Assembly: GCF_003751265.1 (NCBI RefSeq)
Contig: NZ_RJKN01000007.1
Span: forward strand, 1-64,000
Direction of reading: 5' to 3'
Source: Pseudokineococcus lusitanus
GTDB lineage: Bacteria > Actinomycetota > Actinomycetes > Actinomycetales > Quadrisphaeraceae
Length of the DNA: 64,000 bases
In this document: positions 11,372 through 27,065 of the stretch, piece after piece
Layout of the letters: the number at the start of each line of letters is the position of its first letter
Numbering within the stretch: position 1 is the first letter of the stretch
Position numbers and translations under genes: made by a program
Notes under the pieces: generated by a model
Told to the model about the DNA's origin: nothing
The model's input: the letters and a program-made list of their open reading frames with translations, nothing else
The model's database searches: none

Positions 11372-12286
11372 TCACCCCTCGTGCGCCGCCCGCACCTCGG
11401 CGGCCAGCGCGACCAGCTCGTCGAGCACCAGCCGGACGAGCGGGCGCTCCGCCTTGTCCGCGCGCACGAGGGCCTCGACGAGCCGGCCGGCGCGGACGCC
11501 GCGCAGCGGCACGAGCCGCACCCCCGGGTGGTGGCCGCACGTGTACCGCGGCAGCAGCGAGAGGCCGTGGCCCGCGGCGACGAGGGCGAGGACGACGTGG
11601 AAGTCGTTGACGCGGTGGGTCACCCGGGGCGGTCCGTCCGCCCCGGCGACGGCGTGGAGGACCGCGGCCACGGGGAAGCCCTCGCGCACGCCCACCCACG
11701 GCTCGCCGACGACGTCGGCGGGCGTCACCGCCTCGCGGTCGGCGAGGGGGTGGTCCAGCGGGACCGCCACGTCCAGCGGCTCCCGCAGGAGCGGCGTCGT
11801 CAGCACCTCGGCGGGGCGGGCCGTCCAGGCCGGCACCCCCTCGGGACGGTGCGCGACGACGACGTCGAGCCGGTCGGTGAGCGGGGCGAAGGCGTCGAGG
11901 GCGACGTCCTCGTCGGAGCAGCGGACCTCGACGCCGGGCCGACCGGCCAGGCGCGTGAGCAGCCCGGGCAGCAGGAGCTCGCCGCCGCTGGCGAAGGCGG
12001 ACACGTGGACGACGCCGGTGGGGCTCGCGAGAGCGCCGGCGGCGGCGGCGCGGGCCCGCTCCAGGGCCGCCGCGACGTCGACGGCGGCGTCCGCGAGCGC
12101 CTCGCCGGCCGCCGTGAGGCGCAGGCGCCGGCCCTCGCGCTCGGTGAGCGGGGTGCCGGCGGCGCGGGCGAGCGCCGCCAGCCGCTGGGAGACCGCAGAG
12201 GGGCTGACGTGGAGGACGGCGGCCGCCCGCGTCACCCCGCCCTGGCTGCGCACCGCGGCGAGCGCGGCCAACGCCTCGACGTCCAT
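11372..12286 (-). CDS. LysR family transcriptional regulator
   Basis: A 304-residue LysR-type regulator. It has an N-terminal winged helix-turn-helix (MDVEALAALAAVRSQGGVTR, with AAAVLHVSPSAVSQRLAAL as the recognition region). The effector-binding domain runs from about residue 88 (VHVSAFASGGELLLPGLLTR) and resembles a type 2 periplasmic binding protein. ATG 12286 is the first residue of the conserved HTH. It is divergent from the EamA transporter, with a 27-bp palindrome in between, so it probably controls that gene and itself. The inducer is unknown. Confidence 0.9.
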   Translation of the reverse strand: MDVEALAALAAVRSQGGVTRAAAVLHVSPSAVSQRLAALARAAGTPLTEREGRRLRLTAAGEALADAAVDVAAALERARAAAAGALASPTGVVHVSAFASGGELLLPGLLTRLAGRPGVEVRCSDEDVALDAFAPLTDRLDVVVAHRPEGVPAWTARPAEVLTTPLLREPLDVAVPLDHPLADREAVTPADVVGEPWVGVREGFPVAAVLHAVAGADGPPRVTHRVNDFHVVLALVAAGHGLSLLPRYTCGHHPGVRLVPLRGVRAGRLVEALVRADKAERPLVRLVLDELVALAAEVRAAHEG

Positions 12287-12313
12287 GCGCGGCAGCCTGC
12301 CAGCGGGACGGGT

Positions 12314-12340
12314 CGACCGTGAAGCCCTGCTGAACGGTCG
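12314..12340. promoter_or_regulatory. Palindromic LysR-type operator
   Basis: CGACCGT, 13 bases, then ACGGTCG: perfect 7-bp arms in the 69-base gap between the divergent LysR gene and the EamA gene. Position and spacing suit a LysR-type recognition site (classically T-N11-A inside an inverted repeat). Confidence 0.6.
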
Positions 12341-12355
12341 GTGCCGAGATGGTCG

Positions 12356-13615
12356 ATGGACCGCACGGTCGGCGCCCGCCAGGCTCGGGACGTGCCTCCC
12401 CGCGACCGCGCCCTCGCCTGCCTCGTGGCGGTGCTCTGGGGCGTCAACTTCCCGGCCACCGAGCTGGCCCTCGCCCAGTTCCCGCCGCTCCTCCTCGTGG
12501 CCCTGCGCTTCGCCCTCGTCGCCGTGCCGACCGTCCTCCTCGTGCCGCGGCCGCAGGTGCCGGTGCGCTGGCTGGTCGGCTACGGCGTGGGCTTCGGGGT
12601 CCTGCAGTTCCTCTTCCTCTACACGGCGATGGACGTCGGCATGCCGCCCGGCCTCGCGTCGCTCGTCCTGCAGTCCTCGGCCCCCTTCACCGTCCTGCTC
12701 GGGGCGCTCCTCCTGCGCGAGCGGCTGACGCCGCGCCGCGCCGTCGGGGTCGGCGTCGCGGTGGCGGGCCTCGCCGGCATCGCCGTCCACCGGGCGGCCG
12801 ACGACGGGGGCGCGCCCGTGGCCGCCGTGCTGCTGACCCTCGCCGGCGGGCTCGGCTGGGCCCTCGGCAACCTGTCGAGCCGGCTCGCCGCCCCGCCGCG
12901 TCCGCTGCACCTCGTGCTGTGGATGAGCGTCGTACCGCCGGTCCCCATGGCCGCCGCGTCGCTGCTCGTCGAGGGGCCCGACCGCGTGGTCACGGCGCTC
13001 ACGACGGCGACGGCGTCGTCGACGGGCCTGCTGGCCCTCCTCGGGCTGGCGTACGTCGTGCTGCTCGCGACCCTCGTCGGGTCGGGCCTGTGGACCGCTC
13101 TCCTGGCGCGGCACCCGTCGGGCGTCGTGGCGCCGTTCTCGATGCTCGTGCCCGTCGCGGGGATCTCCTCGTCCTGGCTCCTCCTCGGGGACCGCACGCC
13201 GCTCGTCGAGGTGGTGCTGGGGGGCCTGGTCGTCGCGGGCGTCCTCGTGGGGAGCACCACACCGCGGGCGGGCGGGCACCGGTGGCGGCGGGGCCCCCGC
13301 GGTGCTGCCATGGAGGTCTGGCCAAGCCCCCGCCGGGTTCGTCGCGCCGACCGGCACCGCGACGTCCTACCCGCCCGCCGGACGCGAGAGGAGCACGTCA
13401 TGGCCACGACCCAGCCCAGGCCGCCGCTCAAGGAGAGGGCGCTGTCCGCCCTCACCTTCTTCTACGGCCCGGCCGACGTCCGCGACCTCCCGGCGGACAA
13501 GCCGACGACGACCGGTCGCCCCGGCGAGGACGTCGGCGACGGCTACCGCCGGCACGGCGAGCAGGGCCGCCAGTACGTCACGCGCGAGCAGCAGGCCGCC
13601 GACGACCGCGGCTGA
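12356..13615 (+). CDS. EamA/DMT-family transporter with unusual in-frame C-terminal extension
   Basis: The first ~300 residues are a ten-helix EamA (DMT) permease: two repeats, the first opening with ALACLVAVLWGVNFPATELA and the second around LAGGLGWALGNLSSRLAA. These exporters move amino acids or other small metabolites; the substrate is unknown, although the divergent LysR gene suggests inducible control. The transporter should end near GVLVGSTTPRAGG (about base 13280). No stop codon follows in frame until 13615, so the ORF continues through ~40 low-quality Arg/Pro residues and then through the complete small ORF that starts at ATG 13400. ATG 12356 is preferred as start; GTG 12341 and GTG 12392 are in frame. 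Either the stop codon was lost or the tail is genuine. Confidence 0.75.
   Translation: MDRTVGARQARDVPPRDRALACLVAVLWGVNFPATELALAQFPPLLLVALRFALVAVPTVLLVPRPQVPVRWLVGYGVGFGVLQFLFLYTAMDVGMPPGLASLVLQSSAPFTVLLGALLLRERLTPRRAVGVGVAVAGLAGIAVHRAADDGGAPVAAVLLTLAGGLGWALGNLSSRLAAPPRPLHLVLWMSVVPPVPMAAASLLVEGPDRVVTALTTATASSTGLLALLGLAYVVLLATLVGSGLWTALLARHPSGVVAPFSMLVPVAGISSSWLLLGDRTPLVEVVLGGLVVAGVLVGSTTPRAGGHRWRRGPRGAAMEVWPSPRRVRRADRHRDVLPARRTREEHVMATTQPRPPLKERALSALTFFYGPADVRDLPADKPTTTGRPGEDVGDGYRRHGEQGRQYVTREQQAADDRG
13400..13615 (+). CDS. Small hypothetical protein (71 aa) starting inside the extended EamA frame
   Basis: ATG 13400 is preceded by AGAGGAG at a six-base spacing, a stronger ribosome site than most genes here have, and is followed by 71 charged, hydrophilic residues (ERALSALTFFYGPADVRDLP, then GDGYRRHGEQGRQYVTREQQ). 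I do not recognise the protein. It is in the same frame as the EamA ORF, and a strong hairpin terminator follows directly. It is most likely an independent small gene whose upstream neighbour has lost its stop codon. Confidence 0.55.
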   Translation: MATTQPRPPLKERALSALTFFYGPADVRDLPADKPTTTGRPGEDVGDGYRRHGEQGRQYVTREQQAADDRG

Positions 13616-13703: not shown

Positions 13704-13747
13704 TCAGCCCTCGAGCCCGGGCCGGTCAGCCCTCGAGCCCGGCCGCC
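13704..13747. repeat. 22-bp tandem duplication of the EboF-like gene's 3' end
   Basis: The unit TCAGCCCTCGAGCCCGG plus five bases occurs at 13704 and again at 13726. The second copy is the reverse complement of the last codons and TGA of the minus-strand phosphodiesterase gene; the first lies just beyond the stop. Confidence 0.85.
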
Positions 13748-15117
13748 CGCAGCAGCAGCCCCTTGACGTCGGTGGCGTGGACCGCGTCCACCCCCGCGAG
13801 CAGCGCGGCGTCGCTGCACACCAGCAGCGGACCGTCGACGCGCGAGGCCGGCGAGCCGTCCGGCACCCGCCCGTGCGACCCGCGCACCGGCGACGGGTCC
13901 AGCGGCACGGTGCGCATGGCGTAGCGCAGCCCGACCTTCTTGCGGACGAGGTTGAGGCCCGCCTTCAGCTTCGCCGTCGGGTCCGCCGGGTCGAAGAACA
14001 GCTCGGCGGGGTCGTAGCCCGGCTTGCGGTGGATCTCGACGCCCCGCGCGTAGTCGGGCGCCCGCTCGTCGTCCAGCCAGTAGTAGTAGGTGAACCAGGC
14101 GTCCGGCTCCGCGACGAGGACGAGCTCGCCGGCCCGCTCGTGGTCGAGCCCGTGGGCCCGCTTGCCCTCCTCGTCGAGGACCGCGTCGACGCCCGCGAGG
14201 CCCGCCAGCAGCCGTCGCACCGCCGGGACGTCGGCCTCCTCGCGCACGTAGACGTGCGCCACCTGGTGGTCCGCCACGGCGAACGCCCGCGAGGTCCACG
14301 GGTCGAGGTACTCCATCCCCGCCTGCGTGTAGACCTCGAGCAGCCCGGCCTCGCGGAGCACCCGGTTGACGTCGACCGGCCGGGAGGCGCGCGTGATGCC
14401 GTACTCCGACAGCGCGACGACGGCGGTCCCGCTCGCCTCGGCGTCGTCGAGCAGCGGCGCGAGGGCCCGGTCCAGCTCCAGGGCCGCCGCGCGCGCCTGG
14501 CGCGAGTCCGGCCCGAAGCGCTGCAGGTCGTAGTCGAGGTGCGGCAGGTAGGCCATCGTGAGGTCGGCGCCCGGCAGCAGCCGGCGCGTGGCCCCGATGA
14601 TCCACTCGCTGGAGCGGATCGACGCCGTCGGCCCCCAGTACTGGAAGAGGGGGAACTCCCCGAGCGCCCCCACGAGCTCGTCGTGGAGCGCCGGCGGGCG
14701 CACGTAGGCGTCGGGGCTCTTGCGGCCGTCCGCGTGGTAGATCGGCCGCGGCGTCACCGTGACGTCGGTCGACATGCCCATCGCGTACCACCAGCAGACG
14801 TTGACGGTCCGGAAGTCCGGCACCTGCTGCTTGGCGGCCTCCCACACCGGCTCCGCCTGCACGAGGCGGTTGTGCTGGCGCCAGAGGAAGACCTCGCCGA
14901 GGTCGCGGAAGTACCAGCCGTTGCCGACGACGCCGTGCTCGGCGGGCATCGCCCCGGTGAGGAAGGTCGCCTGGACGCTGCACGTGACGGCGGGCAGGAC
15001 GGTGTCCACCGGCGCGGAGGCTCCCGAGGCGGCCACCCGGCCGAGGCGCGGCATGTCCTCCAGCGCCCGCGGGGTCAGCCCGACGACGTCGAGGAGCAGG
15101 ACGGGGCGGCGGCTCAC
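13726..15117 (-). CDS. EboF-like alkaline phosphatase-superfamily phosphodiesterase
   Basis: A 463-residue member of the type I phosphodiesterase/nucleotide pyrophosphatase group, last gene of the Ebo-type operon. Visible features are an N-terminal metal Asp (LLLDVVG), the probable nucleophile Thr45 in LPAVTCSVQATF, the G(V/N)GNGWYF segment, LPHLDYDLQRFG with Asp ligands, and SDHG-like SEYGITR. In the last, Glu and Tyr stand where classical NPP enzymes have Asp and His. A later DHQVAHVYV supplies a His. GTG 15117 overlaps the upstream EboE stop as GTGA, so translation is coupled. In described Ebo clusters EboF belongs to this family, but its substrate is unknown. No signal peptide is seen, so it should be cytoplasmic. 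Confidence 0.85.
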   Translation of the reverse strand: MSRRPVLLLDVVGLTPRALEDMPRLGRVAASGASAPVDTVLPAVTCSVQATFLTGAMPAEHGVVGNGWYFRDLGEVFLWRQHNRLVQAEPVWEAAKQQVPDFRTVNVCWWYAMGMSTDVTVTPRPIYHADGRKSPDAYVRPPALHDELVGALGEFPLFQYWGPTASIRSSEWIIGATRRLLPGADLTMAYLPHLDYDLQRFGPDSRQARAAALELDRALAPLLDDAEASGTAVVALSEYGITRASRPVDVNRVLREAGLLEVYTQAGMEYLDPWTSRAFAVADHQVAHVYVREEADVPAVRRLLAGLAGVDAVLDEEGKRAHGLDHERAGELVLVAEPDAWFTYYYWLDDERAPDYARGVEIHRKPGYDPAELFFDPADPTAKLKAGLNLVRKKVGLRYAMRTVPLDPSPVRGSHGRVPDGSPASRVDGPLLVCSDAALLAGVDAVHATDVKGLLLRAAGLEG

Positions 15118-16427
15118 GCGCCCGCCCCCGTCCCGACCGGGCTGCCCGCCAGCCGGTCCCGGGTCCACGCCAGCTCCGCGGCGATGCCGCCCGCGAGGTC
15201 GGCGGCCGCGGTGCCGGTGCCGCCGGAGCGCTCCCGGTGCGCGGCGGGCAGGACGGACCACGTGTAGGTCTCGACCTCGACGACGTCGACCCGCACCGCG
15301 GGCGGGGCGTCGCGCACGAGGTCGTGCAGGGCGGTGGTGAGCGGTGCGGTCACGGGGCGCACGGGTCCTTCCCAGTCGGCGTGCAGCGGTGCGTGGACGT
15401 GGCAGCGCCACGGGCCGCGGCGGGGCAGCCCGCCGTCGGCGTGGTCGCGCAGGGCGCGGGGCAGGTCGTCGGCCGTCGCGAGGGCGCCGTCGGCGCCCCG
15501 CTCGCGGACCTGGTGGAGGAAGCGCGGCTCGTCGAAGACGGCCAGCGCGGCGCGGTCGGCGTCGTCGGCCGGGTCGTCGAGGTGCAGCGCCGCGGAGGCC
15601 TGCAGCTTGACGACGGGGACCGCGGGGACGGCGTCGGGCCCGGTGCCCGCCGTGAGCCGCCCGACGACGCCGTCGAGGTCGTCGAAGCCGACGGCGCTGT
15701 GGCACGTGTCGAGGCAGACGCCGACGAGGGCGGCGTCGTCGGCGGTCGGCGGCGCGTCGTCCGGCCCGCCGGCGAGGAGGGTCGGCAGCGCGTCGGGGCC
15801 GGCGAGGGCGTCGTCGAGGACCTCCCACACGCAGCCGGGCTCCGGCTCGAGGCCCACGCGGACGCGCCGGCCGGTCGTGCGGGCCACCTCGCCCAGCCCC
15901 GTGGCCAGCGCGCGGAGCGCCCGCCCGGCGGCCGCACGGCGGGCGTCGTCCCACGGGCGGTACCAGGCGAGGGGCAGCGTGCTCACGGCGCCGCCGTCGA
16001 CGTCGTCCGGCAGGAGCGCCGCGAGGACCCGGGCGCACGCGAGGGTGTGCTCGAGGCGGGCGGGCTCGGTCCAGTCGGGGGAGTAGACGGCGTGCTTGAC
16101 CACCGGCGCGTGGAAGTCGCCGTAGGGGAACGCGTTCAGCGTGACGACCTCGAGCCCGAGGCGGTCGAGCTCGGCCCGCAGCCGCCGCACCGGGCCGCCC
16201 GCCGGGGCACCGTCGGCGAGGTCGGCGTCGAGGACCGCGGCCGCGCCGGCGGGGAACCACAGGCCCACGCCGAGCCGCTCGCCGTCCGCGGGCAGCCCGA
16301 GGCGCTCCGCGACCGGGACGGCGACGGTGCGGAGCTGCTCCACGATGCCGTCGAGCGCCGTGGCCGGGTGGACGTTGGTGCAGTAGGCGACGTGGACCGT
16401 GCTGCCGTCGGGACGGGCGACCCTCAC
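15114..16427 (-). CDS. eboE: EboE-like TIM-barrel metabolite protein
   Basis: A 437-residue xylose isomerase-like TIM-barrel protein. The start YCTNVHPATALDGIVEQLRT and the block LNAFPYGDFHAPVVKHAVYS match what I know of EboE. Candidate metal ligands sit in VGLEPEPGC (Glu), GVCLDTCHSAVGF (Asp, His) and CHVHAPLHADWEG (His). GTG 16427 overlaps the eboB stop by four bases (GTGA). Its partners are EboA and EboB immediately upstream. In cyanobacteria the ebo genes are needed for the scytonemin precursor to reach the periplasm; the chemistry of EboE itself is not established. Confidence 0.88.
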   Translation of the reverse strand: MRVARPDGSTVHVAYCTNVHPATALDGIVEQLRTVAVPVAERLGLPADGERLGVGLWFPAGAAAVLDADLADGAPAGGPVRRLRAELDRLGLEVVTLNAFPYGDFHAPVVKHAVYSPDWTEPARLEHTLACARVLAALLPDDVDGGAVSTLPLAWYRPWDDARRAAAGRALRALATGLGEVARTTGRRVRVGLEPEPGCVWEVLDDALAGPDALPTLLAGGPDDAPPTADDAALVGVCLDTCHSAVGFDDLDGVVGRLTAGTGPDAVPAVPVVKLQASAALHLDDPADDADRAALAVFDEPRFLHQVRERGADGALATADDLPRALRDHADGGLPRRGPWRCHVHAPLHADWEGPVRPVTAPLTTALHDLVRDAPPAVRVDVVEVETYTWSVLPAAHRERSGGTGTAAADLAGGIAAELAWTRDRLAGSPVGTGAGA

Positions 16428-17290
16428 GGCCGGGGGCTGCGGGGGCCGCGCAGCACGGAGCTGCCCTCGAACTCGGCCCCCAGCTCGGTGCGGACGTCGT
16501 CGAGGAGCAGACGGCCGCTGCGGCCGAAGAACTCGACGGGGTTGCGCCACAGGACGCGGTCGACGTCGTCCTCGGAGAAGCCCGCGACGAGCATCGCCTC
16601 GCCGACCTTCCGGGTCTTCAGCGGGTCGCTGCGGCCCCAGTCGGCGGCGGAGTTGACGAGCACCCGCTCCGGGCCGCGCTCGAGGAGGATCCGCACCATC
16701 CGGTGCTCGTCCATCTTCGTCTCGGGGTAGACGGAGAAGCCCATCCAGCAGCCGGCCGCGTCGACGTCCGCGAGGGTCGTCTCGTTGAGGTGGTCGACGA
16801 CGACGGCGTCCGCGGCGATCCCCGAGGCCTCGACGAGCTCGAGCGTGCGCCGGGTGCCCGCCGCCTTGTCGCGGTGGGGGGTGTGGACCATGGCGGGCAG
16901 CCCGTGCTCGACGGCCATCGCCAGCTGGCGCGCGAAGGCGTCCTCCTCCGCGGCCGTCATCGAGTCGAAGCCGATCTCGCCGACGGCCACGACGCCGTCC
17001 TTCTCGAGGTAGCGCGGCAGCTCGTCGAGGACGGGCGTGCAGCGGGGGTCGTTGGCCTCCTTGGGGTTCAGCGCGATCGTGCAGTGGTGCGCCACGCCGA
17101 ACTGCGAGGCGCGGAAGCGCTCCCAGCCCAGCAGCCCGTCGAAGTAGTCGAGGAAGGAGCCGACGTTCGTGCGCGGCTGGCCGAGCCAGAAGGCCGGCTC
17201 GACGAGCGCGGCGACGCCGGCGGCGGCCATCGCCTCGTAGTCGTCGGTCGTGCGCGACGTCATGTGGATGTGCGGGTCGAAGATCCTCAT
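16424..17290 (-). CDS. eboB: EboB-like TatD family metal-dependent hydrolase
   Basis: A 288-residue amidohydrolase-fold protein of the TatD group. Metal ligands are visible as DPHIHM (His7, His9), VGEIGFDS (Glu), VHTPHRDK (His), VVDHLNE (His) and VNSAADWG (Asp). TatD nucleases are usually about 260 residues; the extra segment between about 40 and 80 (WLGQPRTNVGSFLDYFDGLLG) is typical of EboB rather than TatD. ATG 17290 overlaps the eboA stop by one base (TGATG). TatD homology alone does not prove nuclease activity; within Ebo operons a small-molecule hydrolase role is equally likely. Confidence 0.88.
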   Translation of the reverse strand: MRIFDPHIHMTSRTTDDYEAMAAAGVAALVEPAFWLGQPRTNVGSFLDYFDGLLGWERFRASQFGVAHHCTIALNPKEANDPRCTPVLDELPRYLEKDGVVAVGEIGFDSMTAAEEDAFARQLAMAVEHGLPAMVHTPHRDKAAGTRRTLELVEASGIAADAVVVDHLNETTLADVDAAGCWMGFSVYPETKMDEHRMVRILLERGPERVLVNSAADWGRSDPLKTRKVGEAMLVAGFSEDDVDRVLWRNPVEFFGRSGRLLLDDVRTELGAEFEGSSVLRGPRSPRP

Positions 17291-18141
17291 CAGCGGGCCT
17301 CCTCGGCGGCGGTGGGGTGGGCGGGGGGCGCGACGCCGAGCAGCGCGCGGGCGGCGGCCGCGGCGGCGAGCCGGTCCGGGGCGCCGTGCTGGGCGGCGTC
17401 GTCGAGGCCGGCCTGCGCCAGCGCGGGCGAGCCGGCGGGCAGGACGGCCGGCACGTCGACGGGCACGGGCCGCCCGGCGGCGACGCGCTCGGCGACGTAG
17501 CGGGCCGCCATCTCGGCGAGGCGCTCGTCCGCACGGTCGGCGAGCCGGTGGACGCAGGACAGCGGCACGCCGACGAAGAGGCACTTGAGCACCGCCTGGC
17601 GCCACACCTCGTCGTCCAGCACGTCGGCGCACGGGCCGACGGCGGCGGCGACGAGCCGGGTGTCGTTGGCGCGCAGCGCGTCCTCGACGAGCGCGGCGGG
17701 GACGGCGCCGCCGGGCAGCGCGGCGGCCGACCGCAGGAGGCCGCGGCGCTCCGTGGCGTCGGCGCGCTCGTGGAGCGAGGGGACCCCGGTGGTGCCGACC
17801 CGGCCCGCCGTGACGGCGTCGGTGACGAGCAGGGCGCGGGCGAGGTCGTCGACCGTCCCGAGCAGGCCCTCGGGGCCCAGCGGGTCCGCGCCGGGGACGA
17901 GCGGGCCGCGGCCCACCGACCGACCGACGGCGGGCAGCAGCACGTCGACGGGGGTGCCGGCGTCGGCCCGGTCGAGCAGCCGCTGCCACCGCGCGCGGAC
18001 GTCGCCCGCGCCGTCGCCCGCCCCGGAGCCGTCACCGAGCCGCGCGGCCAGCGCCCGCCGCCAGGCGTCGGCGCCGTCTCCGGGCTCGGCCCAGCGGGCC
18101 AGCGACCAGCCGTGGGCGTCGTCGGGCCTGGTGCTGCTCAC
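17290..18141 (-). CDS. eboA: EboA-like protein
   Basis: A 283-residue soluble, mostly helical protein with no catalytic motif. I call it EboA from its position next to EboB and from the EboA-like block VLKCLFVGVPLSCVHRLADR, followed by ERLAEMAARYVAERVAAGRP. An N-terminal part rich in Gly/Asp (DGSGAGDGAGD) looks like a flexible loop. GTG 18141 overlaps the upstream isomerase stop (GTGA). EboA is the least understood member of the cluster; a scaffold or substrate-handling role has to stay open. Confidence 0.8.
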   Translation of the reverse strand: MSSTRPDDAHGWSLARWAEPGDGADAWRRALAARLGDGSGAGDGAGDVRARWQRLLDRADAGTPVDVLLPAVGRSVGRGPLVPGADPLGPEGLLGTVDDLARALLVTDAVTAGRVGTTGVPSLHERADATERRGLLRSAAALPGGAVPAALVEDALRANDTRLVAAAVGPCADVLDDEVWRQAVLKCLFVGVPLSCVHRLADRADERLAEMAARYVAERVAAGRPVPVDVPAVLPAGSPALAQAGLDDAAQHGAPDRLAAAAAARALLGVAPPAHPTAAEEAR

Positions 18142-19094
18142 GGGGTGGCCTCCACGGGGTCTCGGGGGATGGCGGTGGTCGCGAGGGCCGCCGCGAGGGC
18201 CGCGGCGAGGGCGTCCCGGCTGCGGCGGGCGACGACGGGCGCGGCGTGGCCGTGCCGGGGGAGCTCGACGGCGGCCAGGCCGGTGTACCCGACCTCGACG
18301 AGGGCGGCGAGCACGTCCGGCAGGTCCACCTCGCCCTCGCCGAAGGGCAGGTGCTCGTGGACGCCGGGGCGCATGTCGTCGAGCTGGACGTTGGCCAGCG
18401 CCCCGGGGGCCAGCGCGTGCGCGCGGCGGACGGTGGCGCCGGGGCTGCGCGGCTCGTTGGCGACGGCGTGGCCGACGTCCAGCGTGAGGCCCAGCCCCGC
18501 AGGGCGTCCCAGGGCGTCGAGGACGGCGAGGGCGTCGTCGAGGACGGCCACGTGGTGGCCGGGCTCGGGCTCGAGGGCCAGCCGGACGCCGGCCTCCTCG
18601 GCGACGGGGACGAGCTCGGCGAGGGAGCGCAGCAGCCGGTCGGTGCCCTCCTCGGGGGTCGAGCCCGCCGGCAGCGGCCCGCTCCAGAAGGAGACGACCG
18701 GGGCGCCGAGCGCGGCGGCGGCCAGCACGGCGCGGTGCAGGAGGTCGACCCGGGCCTCGCGGCCGGGCTCGGAGTCGGTGCCGTCCGGCCCGACGAGCAC
18801 GGGCCAGTGCTTGCGCCACGGGTCGAGGACGTAGCGGCCGCCGGTCTCGACGACGGCCACGAGGTCGCGGGCGCGGAGCTCGTCGCCCACCGCCGCGGCG
18901 CGGCGTCGCAGGTCGTCGGTGCTGCCCGACGGGTCGAGGTGGTGGTGGTCGAGCGTGAGGCCGACGCCGCCGTAGCCCAGCCCCGCGACGAGGTCGAGCG
19001 CCTCGGGCAGCCGGTGGTCGGCCAGGCCGTTGGTGCCGTAGCCGACGACGAAGGGGGTCGCCGGCAGGGCGGGGGCCGCGGCGGGTGCGCTCAC
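18138..19094 (-). CDS. Sugar phosphate isomerase/epimerase (second TIM barrel of the operon)
   Basis: A 318-residue xylose isomerase-like TIM-barrel enzyme. Expected divalent-metal ligands appear in order: LALEPEPGHH (Glu), LTLDVGHAV (Asp/His), VQLDDMRPGVHEHLPFGEG (Asp/His) and AAVELPRHGH (Glu). Relatives isomerise or epimerise sugars or act on inositol-derived ketoses (the IolE/IolH type), which would suit an operon opened by inositol phosphate synthase. It is not EboE, which is encoded separately, so this operon contains two barrels. GTG 19094 overlaps the eboC stop (GTGA). The reaction is not known. Confidence 0.85.
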   Translation of the reverse strand: MSAPAAAPALPATPFVVGYGTNGLADHRLPEALDLVAGLGYGGVGLTLDHHHLDPSGSTDDLRRRAAAVGDELRARDLVAVVETGGRYVLDPWRKHWPVLVGPDGTDSEPGREARVDLLHRAVLAAAALGAPVVSFWSGPLPAGSTPEEGTDRLLRSLAELVPVAEEAGVRLALEPEPGHHVAVLDDALAVLDALGRPAGLGLTLDVGHAVANEPRSPGATVRRAHALAPGALANVQLDDMRPGVHEHLPFGEGEVDLPDVLAALVEVGYTGLAAVELPRHGHAAPVVARRSRDALAAALAAALATTAIPRDPVEATP

Positions 19095-20053
19095 GTGGCG
19101 GAGCCCCAGCGGCGCAGGGCCTTGCCGCCCGCGCCGAGGGCGAGGACGCCGGCGGCCGTGACCGGCTGCCGCAGACCGGCGAGCAGCGAGGCCTGGAGCG
19201 TGACGAGGGCCTTGAGGCCCGCGACGGTCGCCGACCGGGCGTCGCCCCCGGAGCCGGTGCCGGCGGCGGCCTGCACGGGCACGAGCCGCGCGACGTGCGC
19301 GGCGGAGGCGGCGACGCCGAGCGCCGCGCCGGCCACGGCGGACGTCCGGCCGGTGCCCCGCCGGACGGCGCCGACGGCGGCGGCCACGCCCGCGGCGGCG
19401 GAGGCGACGCCGGCGGCGGCCGACACCGCGGCGGCCCGCCGGGCGGTCGCGGGCGACGCGCCGTGGACCTCGCCCCGGGCGAGGTCGGTGACGGCGAGCG
19501 TGTGCAGCCCGACCGACAGCGCCGGCAGCGCCGCCGGGCGGAGCGCGGCGCCGAGGGGGAGGCCCGGTGCGGCCGCCGTCGCCCCGAGGACGACGTCGAG
19601 CAGCCGCGTGACGGCCATGCTGGCCGGCGCGAGCGGGCTGCTCTTGCCGACGAGGTCGTAGGTCCAGACGCCCGCGGCGAGGAGCGCGGCGCACCCGGCG
19701 GACCGGCGACCGCCGGTGAGGCCCGCGACGCCGACCCCCGCCGCGGTGAGCCCGGCCGCGGCGGCGAGCGCGGCCCGCGGGTCCACGCGGCCGCTGGGCA
19801 GCGGCCGCTCGGGCCGCTCGACGGCGTCGAGCTCCCGGTCGGCCCAGTCGTTGAGCACCATCCCGCCCCAGTAGAGGCAGACGGACGCGAGCGGCGTCGC
19901 GGCGGCGCGGGCCGCGGCGCCGCGGCCTCCGGGCCCGCCGGCGGCGGCGAGGCCCACGAGGGCGTCGCCGGGCACGGAGACGACGGCGGGCAGCCGGACG
20001 AGCTCGGCCCACTCGCGCCACGTGCCGAGCCCGCCGGCGGGCACGGTGCTCAT
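19091..20053 (-). CDS. eboC: UbiA-type prenyltransferase (EboC-like)
   Basis: A 320-residue integral membrane protein of the UbiA superfamily, which transfers a prenyl chain onto a small acceptor. The first diphosphate/Mg2+ motif is clear: NDWADRELDAVERPERPLPS. The second Asp-rich site of classical UbiA enzymes appears as a DLARGEVHGA variant, as in the SCO-type actinobacterial subgroup. Several Ala/Leu/Gly-rich membrane helices span the protein. ATG 20053 overlaps the stop of inositol-3-phosphate synthase (ATGA). In context it would attach a lipid tail to the cyclitol product, or to another acceptor. Neither donor nor acceptor can be read from sequence. Confidence 0.88.
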   Translation of the reverse strand: MSTVPAGGLGTWREWAELVRLPAVVSVPGDALVGLAAAGGPGGRGAAARAAATPLASVCLYWGGMVLNDWADRELDAVERPERPLPSGRVDPRAALAAAAGLTAAGVGVAGLTGGRRSAGCAALLAAGVWTYDLVGKSSPLAPASMAVTRLLDVVLGATAAAPGLPLGAALRPAALPALSVGLHTLAVTDLARGEVHGASPATARRAAAVSAAAGVASAAAGVAAAVGAVRRGTGRTSAVAGAALGVAASAAHVARLVPVQAAAGTGSGGDARSATVAGLKALVTLQASLLAGLRQPVTAAGVLALGAGGKALRRWGSAT

Positions 20054-21264
20054 CGGCGGCCGAGCTCCTCGGCGAGACCGAGGAGGGCGCGCCACTGCTC
20101 GCCCAGCGCGTGCTCGTCGCTGCCGGAGGGGTTCTTGAAGAAGAAGCCCAGCTCCGTCACCGCGCCGGTGCGGCCGGCCTCGGCGGCGGCCGCGACGAGG
20201 CGGACGAGGTCGAGCACGAGCGGCGCCGCGAGGGCCGAGTCGCACCCGGCCCACGTGAACTGCAGCGTCATCCGCGTCCCGAGGAAGCCCGTGAAGCCGA
20301 TGTGGTCCCAGGCCGTCTTCCAGTCGCCGAAGTCCGGCACGTTGTCGATGTGCAGGGGGCCCGGGACGGGCCGCCCGACCATCGCCGCGAGGCCGGCGGC
20401 CTTCGTCGCGGTCTTGCTGCGCACCGCCTCGGGGTCGGCGAGGGTCTGCCCGTCGCCGCCGCCGAGGAGGTTGAAGGAGGCCCACGAGTCCACGTGCAGC
20501 GCCCGCTGGACGAACATCGGCGCGAGGACCGACTTCATCAGGGTCTCGCCCGTCTTGCCGTCGCTGCCCGCCCAGGTCGCGCCGGCGCGGCGGCCCTGCT
20601 CGGCCACGGCCGGCAGGTCGACGCCGGGGCTCGGGGTGAAGGCGACGAAGGAGGCGCCGACCTCGAAGGCGGCCCAGGCGTACGTCGCCGAGAGGGGCAG
20701 CGGCGAGCGGCCGGCCTCCCACGCGGAGCGGACCGACTCCGGCGTCGCGAGGTCCGCGGCCAGGGTCTCGTCCGACGGGTCGAGGGGCGGCTGCGTGCTC
20801 GAGACGTCGACGACGACGAGCCGGGCGAGGTCGTGGCGGCGGACGAAGTCGCGCAGGTCGCGGACGAGCGCGTCGACGACGGCGGCCTGGCCCCCCTCGC
20901 CCACGGTGGCGGCGGTGGCGGGAACGAGGACCTCCGCGTCCGCGGCGTCGAGCGCGTCGCCGAGGGCGTCGACGAGCTCGCGCGGCACGACGCGCTGGCT
21001 CGCGAGGAGCTCGGCGCGCTTGCGGTAGGGGACCTCCGAGAGGTCGTGCCCGCCGGTGACGAGGTCGTCGAGGCCGACGAGGTGCGCGCCCTCGAGCGCG
21101 GGCAGCTCGGTGACCATGCCGGTGGGCCCGGCCAGGCGGGCGCGCAGGGCGTGCGCGCCGAGCAGGGCGGTGGTGGCCACCGACCCCTTGGCGCCCACGA
21201 ACCAGACGCCCACCCCTCCCGTGCCGCCGGCGGTCCCGGTCGTGAGGTCGCTGTCGTCCGTCAT
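20050..21264 (-). CDS. Inositol-3-phosphate synthase, first gene of the Ebo-type operon
   Basis: A 404-residue NAD+-dependent enzyme that cyclises D-glucose 6-phosphate to 1D-myo-inositol 3-phosphate. The Rossmann motif GVWFVGAKGSVATT is at residues ~18-31. Active-site signatures are GSDGKTGETLMKSVLAPMF and FNLLGGGDGQTLADPEAVRS with Lys/Asp residues typical of the family, and GFTGFLGTRMTLQFTW. ATG 21264 has a GGGAG ribosome site. It is the first gene of a seven-gene operon whose members all overlap by 1-4 bases. It occupies the niche of a sugar-phosphate cyclase, filled in described Ebo clusters by the DHQS-like EboD. A purely housekeeping role (phosphatidylinositol, mycothiol) is the alternative. 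Confidence 0.9.
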   Translation of the reverse strand: MTDDSDLTTGTAGGTGGVGVWFVGAKGSVATTALLGAHALRARLAGPTGMVTELPALEGAHLVGLDDLVTGGHDLSEVPYRKRAELLASQRVVPRELVDALGDALDAADAEVLVPATAATVGEGGQAAVVDALVRDLRDFVRRHDLARLVVVDVSSTQPPLDPSDETLAADLATPESVRSAWEAGRSPLPLSATYAWAAFEVGASFVAFTPSPGVDLPAVAEQGRRAGATWAGSDGKTGETLMKSVLAPMFVQRALHVDSWASFNLLGGGDGQTLADPEAVRSKTATKAAGLAAMVGRPVPGPLHIDNVPDFGDWKTAWDHIGFTGFLGTRMTLQFTWAGCDSALAAPLVLDLVRLVAAAAEAGRTGAVTELGFFFKNPSGSDEHALGEQWRALLGLAEELGRR

Positions 21265-21522: not shown

Positions 21523-22935
21523 TCAGGCCGCCGTCGCGCGGCGCCCGGACGGCGAGCCCTGCGGCAGCCAGCGGCGCAGCTGCTCCCGCCCGAAGAGCTC
21601 GTCGAGGACCATCGCGGCGGCGCCGGCGAGGCCGGGGTCGTCGCCCGCGGCGGCGCTCTCCACGCGGAGGTCGCGCGTCGCCAGCGGCAGCGAGCGCTGG
21701 TAGACGCCCTGCCGCACCGAGGCGAGCAGCAGGTCGGAGCCGGCGCCGAGCCGCCCGCCGAGGACGAGCAGGCCCGGGTCGAAGAAGTTGACGAGCGTGG
21801 CGAGGACCTGGCCGACGAGGTGCCCCGAGGCCTGGACCATCTCGACGCTCGTGCGGTCGCCCTCCTGGGCGGCGCGCACGACCTCCTCCACGCCGAGCCC
21901 GCCCGGCGCCGCCGCGGCGAGCCGGGCCAGCGCCGGGCTCGTGCCGTCGGCGGCCATCTCGGCCGCCCGGCGGACGAGGGCGGCCCCGCCCGCGACCGCC
22001 TCGAGGCAGCCGGTGTTGCCGCAGCGGCAGACGACGTCGGCGCCCCCCGGTGCCTCGACGTGCCCGATGTCGCCGGCGCAGCCGTGCGCGCCGCGCAGCA
22101 GCCGCCCGCGGGCGACGAGGCCGGCGCCGATGCCGGTGCCGACCTTGACGAAGAGCATGTCCTCGGGCTGGTCCGGGCGGTCGCCGAGCGGCGCGCGGCC
22201 CTGGCGGGCGTGCCGCCGGGCGACGACCTCGCCGAGCGCCATGAGGTTCACGTCGTTGTCGACCCACGTGGGGGCGTCCCACCGCTCGGACAGGCGGGCG
22301 CGGACGTCGGCGTCGTCCCAGCCGGGCATGATCGGCGGCCGGTTGGGCCGGCCGGAGAGGAACTCCACCGGCCCGGGCAGCCCGACGCCGACGCCCCAGA
22401 CGGGGACGGGGCCGCGCTCGGCCGCCAGGCCGTCGAGCAGCCGGGCGAAGAGCTCGTCGACGCGGTCGAGGACGGGCCCCGGTCCGTCGGCGATGCTCGC
22501 GGGCTCGTCGAGCGAGGCCAGCAGCGTCCCGGCCAGGTCGGTGACGCCCACGGTGAGGCGGCTGGCGCCGAGCGGGGCGACGAGGACGACGCCGGCGTCG
22601 TGCCGCAGCGCGAGCTCGCGGGGGGCGCGGCCGCCGCTGGACGGGGCCGTGCCGTGCTCGTCGAGGACGCCCAGCTCGAGCAGCCGGGCGACGCGGCCGG
22701 CGACGACGCTGCGGCCGAGGCCGGAGGCGCGGACGACCTCGGGGCGGGTGCGGGCGACGCCCCGGCGGACGAGGTCGAGGACGGCGACGAGGCCGTCGAC
22801 GAGGTCGTCGGGGAGGTCGGCCGGGCCGACCGGGCCGACCGGTCCCTCGGCGCGCGGGGGGATCGTCGGCACCGTCGCGGGGGCCGTGCCGGCGTCCGGC
22901 GTCGCTGCCGGACGCGCACGGGTCGGTGCGGTCAT
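21523..22935 (-). CDS. ROK family transcriptional repressor, divergent from the sugar ABC operon
   Basis: A 470-residue ROK-type regulator. After a ~45-residue Pro-rich N-terminus comes a winged HTH (TRPEVVRASGLGRSVVAGRV), then the ASKHA sugar-binding domain with VDNDVNLMALGE, VKVGTGIGAGLV, the zinc motif CRCGNTGCLEAV and a GH..EAPGG segment. Such proteins release DNA on binding a sugar or sugar phosphate. ATG 22935 lies just beyond its own predicted promoter. It faces the ABC importer genes, and two direct-repeat operators sit in the shared region, so it almost certainly represses both. It is also upstream of the Ebo-type operon on the same strand, but 258 bases separate them. Confidence 0.9.
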   Translation of the reverse strand: MTAPTRARPAATPDAGTAPATVPTIPPRAEGPVGPVGPADLPDDLVDGLVAVLDLVRRGVARTRPEVVRASGLGRSVVAGRVARLLELGVLDEHGTAPSSGGRAPRELALRHDAGVVLVAPLGASRLTVGVTDLAGTLLASLDEPASIADGPGPVLDRVDELFARLLDGLAAERGPVPVWGVGVGLPGPVEFLSGRPNRPPIMPGWDDADVRARLSERWDAPTWVDNDVNLMALGEVVARRHARQGRAPLGDRPDQPEDMLFVKVGTGIGAGLVARGRLLRGAHGCAGDIGHVEAPGGADVVCRCGNTGCLEAVAGGAALVRRAAEMAADGTSPALARLAAAAPGGLGVEEVVRAAQEGDRTSVEMVQASGHLVGQVLATLVNFFDPGLLVLGGRLGAGSDLLLASVRQGVYQRSLPLATRDLRVESAAAGDDPGLAGAAAMVLDELFGREQLRRWLPQGSPSGRRATAA

Positions 22936-22943
22936 GGGGACGG

Positions 22944-22971
22944 ACAGTAGTCGGCTGACTTCTGCTGTCCA
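22944..22971 (-). promoter_or_regulatory. Predicted promoter of the ROK gene
   Basis: On the minus strand TGGACA (22966-22971), a 16-bp spacer and TACTGT (22944-22949) make a sigma-70-like promoter. One copy of the TGACTTCTGC operator occupies the spacer, consistent with autorepression. Confidence 0.5.
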
Positions 22972-22986
22972 GACGTTGACTTCTGC
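22956..22986. promoter_or_regulatory. Twin direct-repeat operators for the ROK repressor
   Basis: TGACTTCTGC occurs at 22956-22965 and 22977-22986, a spacing of exactly 21 bp (two helical turns). One copy lies in the spacer of the ROK promoter; the other overlaps the -35 of the ABC-operon promoter. Confidence 0.7.
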
Positions 22987-23004
22987 ACGCCGACGGCATT
23001 AGAT
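22976..23004 (+). promoter_or_regulatory. Predicted promoter of the sugar ABC operon
   Basis: TTGACT (22976-22981), a 17-bp spacer and TTAGAT (22999-23004) form a near-consensus promoter overlapping the second operator repeat. It leaves a leader of about 190 bases before the ATP-binding gene. Confidence 0.65.
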
Positions 23005-23201
23005 CGTCGGTGACGGGCGGCCATCAGGCCGTACGAGCACTGAAGCACTGTCACGACGCGGTGACCAGACCTCTCGCCGAACATCTCGGCAGCGATCGGT
23101 CACCGCACCCGGCACGACGACGCGCCGGGCGTCACGGGGCGTCACCGACGACACGGACCGCGTCTCCCACGACGCGACCGACAGCCACACGAGGGGGTGT
23201 G

Positions 23202-24704
23202 ATGCGGGACGAGCTGCTCCGCATGACCGGGATCGTCAAGCACTTCCCCGGCGCCAAGGCCCTGGACGGCGTGGACCTCGTGGTCCGTGCCGGCGAGGTG
23301 CACTGCGTGCTCGGCCAGAACGGCGCCGGCAAGTCGACGCTCATCAAGGTCCTCGCGGGGGCGCACGCGCCCACCGCCGGCGAGATCACCTGGCAGGGGC
23401 AGCCGCTCACGCTGGCCAACCCTGTCGCGGCCATCAAGGCCGGCATCGCGACGATGTACCAGGAGCTCGACGTCGTCGACGGCCTCACGGTGGCCGACAA
23501 CATCTACCTGGGCCACGAGATGTCGACGGCCGGGGTGACGAAGCGGCGCGAGGTCGAGCGGCACACGAAGGAGCTGCTCGCGCGCCTCGGCCACAGCGAG
23601 ATCAAGCCGGGCACCGAGGTCGGCTCCCTCTCGGCGGCGGGCAAGCAGATCGTCAGCATGGCCCGCGCCCTCTCGCACGACGCGAAGCTCATCATCATGG
23701 ACGAGCCGTCCGCGGTGCTGGACTCCGAGGAGGTCGACAACCTCTTCCGCACCGTCCGCGACCTCACCGCGGCGGGCGTCGGCATCGTCTACATCTCCCA
23801 CCGCCTCGAGGAGATCCGCGAGATCGGCGACCGGATCACGGTCATCAAGGACGGCCGCTCCGTCGCCACCGACCTCGCCGTGGCCGACGTCCCCACCCCC
23901 GAGCTCATCCGGCTCATGACCGGCCGCACCGTCGAGGGCTTCCCCCAGCGCCCGGCCCTGCCGGCCGACGCCGCGGAGCTGCTCGTCGTCGACGGGCTCG
24001 CCGCGGACGGCGTCTTCGAGGACGTCTCCTTCACCGTCCGCGCCGGCGAGGTCGTCGGCCTCGCGGGGCTCGTGGGCGCCGGCCGCTCGGAGATCCTCGA
24101 GACGGTCTACGGCGCGCGGAAGGCGACCGCCGGCAGCGTGCGCGTGGGTGACAAGAAGCTGCGCGCCGGGTCCGTCGCCGCCGCGGTCGGCGCGGGCGTC
24201 GGTCTGGCGCCCGAGGAGCGCAAGAGCCAGGGCCTGCTCCTCGGCGAGCCGATCTACCGCAACATCACGCTGACGTCCTTCGCCCGCTTCGCCAAGGGCG
24301 GCCTGCTCGACGAGAAGGCCGAGCGGGCCGCGGCCACCGAGCAGATCAAGGCCATGGAGCTGCGGCCGGCCGACCCGGACCGGGTCATCGGCACGCTGTC
24401 GGGCGGCAACCAGCAGAAGGCGATGCTCGCCCGCTGGCTCGTCCACGGCTGCCGCGTCCTGCTCCTCGACGAGCCCACCCGCGGCGTCGACGTCGGCGCC
24501 CGGGCCGAGATCTACGCCCTCATCAACCAGCTGGCCGCCTCCGGCGCGGCCGTCGTCGTGGTCTCCAGCGAGATCCCCGAGGTCCTCGGGCTCGCCGACC
24601 GCGTGCTGGTCATCTCCGACGGGCGGGTCGTCCACACCGGCCCCGCCGACCAGATCGACGAGCACGGGGTCCTCGACCTCGTCATGGAAGGACGCGCGGC
24701 ATGA
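23202..24704 (+). CDS. Sugar ABC transporter ATP-binding protein (RbsA/XylG type)
   Basis: A 500-residue fusion of two ATP-binding domains, the energising subunit of a CUT2-type sugar importer. Domain 1 has Walker A GQNGAGKST, a signature-like SLSAAGKQIVSMARAL and Walker B LIIMDEPS. Domain 2 has the degenerate P-loop GLVGAGRSE usual in this family, signature LSGGNQQKAM and Walker B LLLDEPTRGVD. ATG 23202 has GAGGGGG four bases upstream; an open frame continues 5' without homology. It is followed by the permease with an ATGA overlap. The substrate is unknown; ribose, xylose, inositol and galactose are all used by this class. Confidence 0.93.
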   Translation: MRDELLRMTGIVKHFPGAKALDGVDLVVRAGEVHCVLGQNGAGKSTLIKVLAGAHAPTAGEITWQGQPLTLANPVAAIKAGIATMYQELDVVDGLTVADNIYLGHEMSTAGVTKRREVERHTKELLARLGHSEIKPGTEVGSLSAAGKQIVSMARALSHDAKLIIMDEPSAVLDSEEVDNLFRTVRDLTAAGVGIVYISHRLEEIREIGDRITVIKDGRSVATDLAVADVPTPELIRLMTGRTVEGFPQRPALPADAAELLVVDGLAADGVFEDVSFTVRAGEVVGLAGLVGAGRSEILETVYGARKATAGSVRVGDKKLRAGSVAAAVGAGVGLAPEERKSQGLLLGEPIYRNITLTSFARFAKGGLLDEKAERAAATEQIKAMELRPADPDRVIGTLSGGNQQKAMLARWLVHGCRVLLLDEPTRGVDVGARAEIYALINQLAASGAAVVVVSSEIPEVLGLADRVLVISDGRVVHTGPADQIDEHGVLDLVMEGRAA

Positions 24705-25816
24705 GCCAGAACACGCCCGACCTGGCGACGGCGGGGTCCGTCCCGCCGGACGACAAGAACGGCGGGAGCCCGACGCCGCTGGAGCGCCGCGGTGCGACGC
24801 CGGGCGCCGGTCCCATGCCCCCGGGGGCCGAGGGCAACGCGGTGACCCGCCTCCTGGGCAGCGACACCGGGCGCACGCTCGGTCTCGTGGCCGTGCTCGT
24901 GCTCATCGTCGTCGCCGGCATCGCGACGGCGGGCGGCCAGTTCGCCAGCGTGCCGACCCTCATCACGATCCTCAACCTGGCCGCGGTCATCGGCGTCGTC
25001 AGCATCGGCATGACCTTCGTCATCACCGGTGGCGGGATCGACCTGTCGGTCGGCTCGCTCGTGGGGCTGTCCTCCATCTGGGCCTCCACGGTGGCCACGC
25101 AGACCATCGCGGCCAACAGCCACTGGTCCGTCATGGTCTTCACGGCGGTCGCCGTCGGCGCGGTGGCCGGTCTCGTGACCGGGGCGGTCATCGCCTACGG
25201 CAAGGTCGTCGCCTTCATCGCGACGCTCGCCATGCTCATCGCGGCCCGGGGCCTCGCCGAGCTGATCGCCCAGAACCGCACGCAGATCGTCACGGTCGAC
25301 GGCTACTCCGACGCCCTGACGGGTCGGGTGCTCGGCGTCCCGGTGCTCGTGTGGATCTTCGCGCTGGTCTCCCTCGCCGGCTGGTTCCTCCTCAACCGGA
25401 CGACCTTCGGCCGCCGCACCATCGCGGTCGGTGGTAACCCCGAGGCCGCGCGCCTCGCCGGCATCAAGGTGCAGCGGCACACGATGTACCTCTACGCCCT
25501 CTCGGGCGTCTGCTCCGGGCTCGGCGGCGCCATGATCCTGGCGCGCGTCAACTCCGGCTCGTCGACGAACGGCACCCTCTACGAGCTCGACGCCATCGCG
25601 GCCGTCGTCATCGGCGGCACCCTCCTCGCCGGTGGCCGCGGCACGATCATGGGCACCGTCCTCGGCGTCCTCATCTTCGCGACGCTGACCAACGTCTTCG
25701 TCCAGAACAACCTGTCGATCTCCACGCAGTCCATCGCCAAGGGCGCCATCATCGTCGTGGCCGTCCTCCTGCAGCAGCGCCTCGCGGCGCGCCGGACACC
25801 CCGCAAGGCCGGGTAG
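24701..25816 (+). CDS. Sugar ABC transporter permease (RbsC type)
   Basis: A 371-residue CUT2-family permease with about ten membrane segments after an unusually long, Pro/Gly-rich N-terminus (about 55 residues before TLGLVAVLVLIVVAGIA). Family marks include SIGMTFVITGGGIDLSVGSL in the second half of the first repeat, and GGNPEAARLAGIKV and ELDAIAAVVIGGTLLAGGRG near the C-terminus. Its ATG overlaps the ATPase stop (ATGA), so the two subunits are translationally coupled. It should form the membrane channel of the importer with the flanking ATPase and binding protein. Confidence 0.93.
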   Translation: MSQNTPDLATAGSVPPDDKNGGSPTPLERRGATPGAGPMPPGAEGNAVTRLLGSDTGRTLGLVAVLVLIVVAGIATAGGQFASVPTLITILNLAAVIGVVSIGMTFVITGGGIDLSVGSLVGLSSIWASTVATQTIAANSHWSVMVFTAVAVGAVAGLVTGAVIAYGKVVAFIATLAMLIAARGLAELIAQNRTQIVTVDGYSDALTGRVLGVPVLVWIFALVSLAGWFLLNRTTFGRRTIAVGGNPEAARLAGIKVQRHTMYLYALSGVCSGLGGAMILARVNSGSSTNGTLYELDAIAAVVIGGTLLAGGRGTIMGTVLGVLIFATLTNVFVQNNLSISTQSIAKGAIIVVAVLLQQRLAARRTPRKAG

Positions 25817-25899
25817 TGGCCCCGACCCTCCCGCCCTTGCCCGGGGCTCCTGACCAGACCTCCCCCCACGACCGCCCGACCATCTCAACGAGGAGAACC

Positions 25900-26958: not shown

Positions 26959-26969
26959 CGACCCCCGGC

Positions 26970-27001
26970 GGCGGTGCGGGCACGCAGGTGCCCGCGCCGC
27001 C
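26970..27001 (+). terminator. Hairpin between binding-protein and dehydrogenase genes
   Basis: A 14-bp stem (GGCGGTGCGGGCAC with GTGCCCGCGCCGCC, one G-U pair) around the tetraloop GCAG. There is no T-run, so it may attenuate or protect the mRNA 3' end rather than fully terminate. Confidence 0.6.
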
Positions 27002-27065
27002 GCCCGTCGCGTCCCCGGCCCGCCCCGCGGGCGGCCCGGCGGCGCACAGGTGAGGAGCACCAGAC

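Follow-up and report, generated by a model that had tools for sequence, protein, structure and literature searches.

In the window, the whole 64,000-nucleotide stretch of Pseudokineococcus lusitanus DNA that we analyzed, seven minus-strand genes form a tight operon (positions 13726-21264) in the order MIPS-EboC-TIM3-EboA-EboB-EboE-EboF, where MIPS is an inositol-3-phosphate synthase and TIM3 is our name for a xylose-isomerase-like TIM-barrel protein. We consider it probable that these genes are an Ebo variant where MIPS, with TIM3 as its dedicated partner, makes a cyclitol instead of EboD, the sugar-phosphate cyclase of described Ebo operons. At the genomic level, the substitution of MIPS and TIM3 for EboD is well supported, and the exchange involves both genes, a role for TIM3 that the first-pass annotation of this DNA had missed. 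The MIPS-type variant is real and recurrent and, as far as the open-licence literature shows, apparently undescribed; a word search found no mention of inositol in the Ebo papers PMC5133447, PMC6282210 and PMC9235831.

We searched the source assembly (3.84 Mb, 98% complete) for EboD with the DHQ synthase profile PF01761 and with a true EboD as query. The profile gave one match, on another contig and ~1.2 kb from aroQ, which scored 343 bits against the TIGR01357 (AroB) cut-off of 305, and the EboD query likewise returned only this AroB, at 34% identity. Since the sole DHQ-synthase homologue passes the AroB model and reaches only this identity to EboD, we concluded that EboD is absent from the genome, as its replacement would require, and we discarded the possibility that it is encoded outside the operon. 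EboD was also not found genome-wide in any of the actinobacterial MIPS-type genomes checked, where the only matches had ~30-40% identity; this is the level of AroB, while the true EboD in G792, a fragmented metagenome-assembled genome (MAG) of Gemmatimonadota, reaches 56%.

We examined how often the arrangement recurs in two samples of genomes. In the phylum sample (396 genomes, 18 of them with EboE above its cut-off), the gene order of the window was present in 17 of 20 Ebo loci, the window included; the loci that depart from it are a second copy without MIPS (L024), a locus without either cyclase (L041), and L027 (genome G381), an EboD and EboG operon without MIPS or TIM3 and the sole actinobacterial operon of the EboD type in the samples. 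In the class sample, EboE exceeded its cut-off in 90 of 395 genomes (~1/4 of the sampled Actinomycetes), and among the 40 loci read, 33 held at least four core genes, with MIPS in 31 of these, EboD in none, and MIPS together with TIM3 in 29, across many families. The recurrent linkage of MIPS to EboA-bearing operons that the replacement predicts is therefore seen in both samples. An EboF-seeded scan yielded 80 loci from Cyanobacteria, Bacteroidota, Proteobacteria, Acidobacteria, Planctomycetes and others, with EboD in 73 and MIPS in none within the DNA fetched; because these loci were ranked against EboD-type EboF, they do not show how common one type is compared with the other. When EboD and MIPS were tabulated per locus, they proved mutually exclusive, as anticipated: the 124 Ebo loci in which four or more core genes are present comprised 48 with MIPS, 71 with EboD, 5 with neither and none with both, counts that do not represent independent events, the number of switches being read from trees. 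A chance neighbourhood is ruled out by the 46 Actinomycetota loci in which MIPS, TIM3 and at least four core genes occur together.

The actinobacterial MIPS-type loci formed one clade in each of the EboA, EboB, EboC, EboE and EboF trees (support 96-100), which includes the two MIPS-less loci L024 and L041 and lies among EboD-type operons when the trees are rooted on Bacteroidota. Among other phyla, relatives were sought around genomes of Gemmatimonadota only, and further phyla may hold MIPS-type operons as well. In Gemmatimonadota, two genomes (G863 and G872; loci L223 and L224) carry EboG-EboB-EboF-EboC-MIPS-TIM3 facing a divergent EboE, with no EboD in the operon and none found genome-wide. 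Their EboF and EboC are sisters of those of an EboD-type Gemmatimonadota locus, their EboB groups with EboG-type, EboD-bearing operons, and a constraint uniting all MIPS-type EboF was rejected (approximately unbiased test, p=0.0044). From these separate placements and the rejected constraint, MIPS and TIM3 took over at least twice, on different Ebo backbones, and a second, separate swap in Gemmatimonadota strengthens the inference that MIPS stands in for EboD. The Gemmatimonadota proteins fall within the actinobacterial group in the tree of TIM3, but not in that of MIPS. The first-pass annotation had proposed that an unrelated sugar-phosphate cyclase occupies the EboD slot, and the cyclase swap itself is upheld by the absence of a genomic EboD, the recurrent MIPS linkage, the EboA and EboE family assignments and the Gemmatimonadota exchange. 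The slot is not, however, a matter of position, as MIPS heads the operon, and a single-gene swap does not describe an exchange that brings in both MIPS and TIM3.

The nearest solved structures to the MIPS of the window, CATALYTICALLY, were 1u1i from A. fulgidus (E 1e-56) and 7nwr (E 2e-43), both in near full-length alignment. Residues K284, K288, K316 and K377 align with K274, K278, K306 and K367 of 1u1i, which we take to be the catalytic lysines, and they show no variation within the clade, among the Gemmatimonadota proteins or in the aligned proteins of a non-Ebo YcaO cluster described below; of the A. fulgidus lysines, K278 and K367 are replaced by Ala in 3qvw and 3qvx. A synthase of a five-membered cyclitol phosphate, and hence of a different ring (6k96), was a far weaker match (E 1.5e-9 versus 1e-56). 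The window protein does not reach the mycothiol INO1 equivalog TIGR03450 (28.5 bits against a cut-off of 638), and it is of the archaeal/Bacteroides-like type, not the actinobacterial mycothiol INO1 type.

TIM3 constitutes a discrete subfamily with the signature LTLDHxHLDP, for which a TIM3-only profile gave intact members at least 364 bits and all other proteins at most 52 bits. Nearly every MIPS-type locus has TIM3, and no EboD-type locus does (a candidate in the EboD locus L091, at 52 bits, is not a member). In the phylum sample, TIM3 and MIPS of this class (>~187 bits) occurred in one and the same set of 24 out of 396 genomes, the ~187-bit line having been set after the scores were seen, at the gap down to the next match (152 bits). 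TIM3 is further tied to Ebo by its fusion with EboA into one open reading frame (ORF) in four of the 40 class-sample loci (L175, L178, L200 and L211). We considered whether TIM3 might be a duplicate of EboE and ruled this out, as the clean TIM3 profile gives EboE at most 45 bits; a preceding iterative profile had shifted towards EboE, and its TIM3 scores of >270 bits were counted as EboE in the 124-locus table. An AlphaFold2 (AF2) model of TIM3 (pLDDT 92) best fitted sugar 3-epimerases (MJ1311, Z 31.6; UlaE, Z 28). From the Glu-Asp-His-Glu site of the sugar 3-epimerases (UlaE/DTE), TIM3 keeps both Glu residues and the Asp, with Q, H, S or T at the His position, and His246 and His248 are invariant in the family. 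Most plausibly, TIM3 belongs to the isomerases or epimerases.

The seven genes, with their coordinates and overlaps as first described, were all borne out by ORF positions and profile searches (Table 1), including the placement of two of the products in the EboA and EboE families. From the MIPS end, the junctions read ATGA, GTGA, GTGA, TGATG, GTGA and GTGA. The EboA protein does not reach a narrower EboA family model (51.6 bits against a cut-off of 320); its AF2 model is all-helical (pLDDT 82), and a Foldseek search with this model gave no match with E <0.001. EboB has 64-74% identity to its MIPS-type counterparts in the phylum sample and 41% to an EboB of the EboD type, and it groups with EboB proteins in the tree (clade support 96), while EboF has 56% identity to EboF of an EboD-type actinobacterial operon. 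The UbiA prenyltransferase falls short of the EboC equivalog NF035940 (111 bits against a cut-off of 250) and passes the sister model SCO3242_trans (269 against 260), a prenyltransferase family that NCBI curators keep separate. Despite its sub-cut-off NF035940 score, it falls among EboC proteins in the tree, and it carries the NDxxDxxxD motif, which is common to EboD-type EboC.

Table 1. Genes of the MIPS-type Ebo operon in the window, listed from the first gene of the operon.
Product	Position	Strand	Profile matches
MIPS (404 aa), first gene of the operon	20050..21264	-	PF07994 118 bits; PF01658 106 bits
EboC-like UbiA prenyltransferase, SCO3242 family	19091..20053	-	PF01040 68.5 bits; NF045897 (SCO3242_trans) 269 bits
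TIM3, xylose-isomerase-like TIM barrel	18138..19094	-	PF01261 125 bits
EboA-domain protein	17290..18141	-	NF035938 129 bits (cut-off 50)
EboB, TatD-like metal-dependent hydrolase	16424..17290	-	PF01026 (TatD_DNase) 49 bits
EboE, TIM-barrel protein	15114..16427	-	NF035939 344 bits (cut-off 250)
EboF, type I phosphodiesterase/nucleotide-pyrophosphatase family	13726..15117	-	PF01663 208 bits

The enzyme activities, the order of steps and the final product that we infer for the MIPS-type operon are as follows. MIPS would convert glucose 6-phosphate to 1D-myo-inositol 3-phosphate, which is the reaction of its family, and TIM3 would reshape this product into an acceptor, for example by epimerization, isomerization or phosphate handling. 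UbiA enzymes prenylate, and the membrane-bound EboC would attach a prenyl chain to the cyclitol acceptor. Scaffolding and completion of the molecule would then fall to EboA, EboB, EboE and EboF, which both operon types retain; the helical EboA would act as a helper. The product would be a prenylated or lipid-linked inositol derivative, perhaps serving as a membrane carrier for a metabolite, a role that we extrapolate from the involvement of ebo with the scytonemin monomer in Nostoc. The prenyl part of this pathway is supported by neighbouring genes, as a polyprenyl synthase adjoins the MIPS-type operon on the same strand in L035 and L177, and an isopentenyl diphosphate (IPP) isomerase lies beside those of L037, L175 and L179. 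In the EboD-type locus L027, a type 2 IPP isomerase (12122-13162) directly follows EboF, which is consistent with a prenyl product there as well.

Several observations weigh against this interpretation. We know of no in vivo activity or product for any Ebo enzyme, the many MIPS-type loci reflect only ~2 independent events, and three MIPS-bearing loci (L187, L205 and L207) are without TIM3. In an in vitro assay with aromatic acceptors only, Ubi-297, which is homologous to EboC, farnesylated quinoline acids (PMC9235831). If EboD acts on sedoheptulose 7-phosphate, as has been proposed (PMC5133447), it would give a C7 phosphate-free cyclitol and MIPS a C6 inositol phosphate, so that the two types could make different products. 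Finally, the MAG G792 combines an EboD locus (L119) with an EboC-MIPS-TIM3 stretch (L217) that lies on a different contig. We asked whether these might be one locus with both cyclases and rejected this, as the EboC fragments overlap in the profile and differ in sequence, and are therefore two genes. This is the only co-occurrence of both types that we saw in one genome; it suggests that the EboD type and the MIPS type may be only partly interchangeable and, more than any other observation, leaves room for a difference between their products.

The expected difference between a C6 inositol phosphate and a C7 cyclitol, the presence of both types in G792, and the existence of two separate curated families for EboC, one for the actinobacterial MIPS type (SCO3242) and one for the cyanobacterial type (EboC), all speak for a sister pathway with a chemically different end product, in which the cyclases would be evolutionary alternatives and not functional equivalents. 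We regard this as rather unlikely, though it deserves serious attention, given that EboF and EboB are well conserved between the types (56% and 41% identity, respectively) and that the same swap on EboA-type and EboG-type backbones suggests that the downstream enzymes accept both inputs. It is far less probable that the operon MIPS, co-transcribed with ebo, acts outside the pathway and only supplies housekeeping inositol for mycothiol and phosphatidylinositol. PF01658 does match just once in the whole assembly, in the operon MIPS itself, and no inositol phosphate synthase of the INO1 type was found in the genome of the window (G000) although MshA, of mycothiol synthesis, is present (C4:386147-387406; 490 bits against a cut-off of 462.5), so the inositol for mycothiol or other housekeeping needs there may come from the operon MIPS or from import. 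Most other MIPS-type genomes of the phylum sample, however, have further, weaker MIPS-family matches (some of which are pieces of one gene), and MIPS never occurs in an Ebo locus with EboD and was twice swapped in together with TIM3. We give hardly any credence to the idea that the actinobacterial operon encodes no functional Ebo pathway and is a remnant or an unrelated sugar-metabolism operon with Ebo-like folds. Several of these operons do adjoin sugar-uptake genes (ABC transporter, ROK regulator, Gfo/Idh), but EboA and EboE pass curated cut-offs, the five core proteins group with Ebo proteins in trees, roughly one in four of the Actinomycetes genomes sampled has EboE, and almost every locus read preserves the operon.

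Some Ebo loci are without a cyclase. L024 (G128) and L209 (G660) are second Ebo copies in which MIPS is absent and TIM3 present, the other locus of G128 (L026) being of the MIPS type, and L182 is a further cyclase-less locus. Within L024, we noted genes for an amine-oxidase-like flavoprotein and an inositol-monophosphatase-family protein just upstream. G279 and G778 have cyclase-less Ebo operons (L041 and L102) with MIPS and TIM3 elsewhere in the genome (L165 in G279; L216 and L219 in G778); these proteins resemble those of the YcaO cluster, and they could serve Ebo in trans. This second, non-Ebo cluster with the same MIPS and TIM3 subfamilies is found in the actinobacterial family f19 (L163, L164 and L166-L169) and likewise in an Acetobacteraceae MAG (L216/L219). 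In L168, its genes encode MIPS, a ~300-aa protein of no known family, a Gfo/Idh oxidoreductase, a metallo-beta-lactamase-like protein, a YcaO protein and TIM3, and a glycosyltransferase follows TIM3 in L163 and L216. In family f95 (L186, L212 and L213), we saw isolated EboE-like proteins that align mostly to the initial two thirds of the EboE model, with no other Ebo genes nearby.

A related sugar-binding protein adjoins the MIPS-type Ebo operon in the window (21523-28256) and in L035, L187, L189 and L202, which belong to several families, accompanied in most by a Gfo/Idh dehydrogenase and an ATP-binding cassette (ABC) permease. In the window, these sugar genes are divergent from the Ebo operon, with a ROK regulator between them. 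We considered the neighbouring ABC transporter as an inositol importer and found this unsupported; the Gfo/Idh protein of the window best fits levoglucosan dehydrogenase, below the cut-off.

The substrate of EboD can be guessed only from its superfamily. The MIPS family has a known product, and the MIPS-type operon therefore names a concrete precursor that could be traced in genetically tractable actinomycetes. That an unrelated cyclase was exchanged twice also argues that the conserved core of EboB, EboC, EboE and EboF needs a cyclitol, which is a testable claim. More tentatively, it is possible that Ebo is a family of prenylated cyclitol lipids with two unrelated routes to the ring, and that an inositol-derived prenyl lipid carrier is present in ~1/4 of the sampled Actinomycetes, which to our knowledge would be a bacterial lipid class without a description so far.

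The ebo operon is widespread and, in Pseudomonas, is needed for resistance to nematodes. Phenotypes assigned to it are scytonemin monomer export and nematode repellence, and all ebo deletions in Nostoc trap the scytonemin monomer in the cytoplasm (PMC6282210). With the ABCDEF-type operon (Yurchenko et al. 2016, PMC5133447; Klicki et al. 2018, PMC6282210), the window shares homologues of EboA, EboB, EboC, EboE and EboF in a tight operon, but it has no EboD in the operon or genome, has MIPS and TIM3, differs in gene order, and has an EboC of the SCO3242 family. The eboG-type backbone (PMC5133447) is the one that carries MIPS and TIM3 for EboD in the Gemmatimonadota loci L223 and L224, whereas the window has EboA and not EboG. 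A prenylated cyclitol product was earlier proposed for EboD-type operons (PMC5133447, PMC6092422), a precedent that the first-pass annotation did not note. Yurchenko et al. (PMC5133447) also mentioned xylose-isomerase/EboA hybrids in Actinobacteria (data not shown), which have the same two fused parts as our four TIM3-EboA fusions, and drew no connection to MIPS or to the loss of EboD.

The archaeal/Bacteroides-type MIPS enzymes of known structure (1u1i and 7nwr) have the family, the catalytic lysines and near full-length alignment in common with the window protein, but, unlike it, have no link to an Ebo operon that we know of. A parallel to the MIPS-EboC pair comes from S. coelicolor, where SCO3242 and SCO3243, a transferase and a myo-inositol phosphate synthase, have been listed with the CDA cluster (PMC3610822) and, in the literature that we found, are assigned no Ebo role. 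The UbiA protein of the window passes the SCO3242 model, a MIPS gene neighbours the UbiA gene in both organisms, and we infer that SCO3243 belongs to the same MIPS clade as the window protein. By this link, a MIPS-type Ebo operon is probably present, unrecognized, in S. coelicolor.

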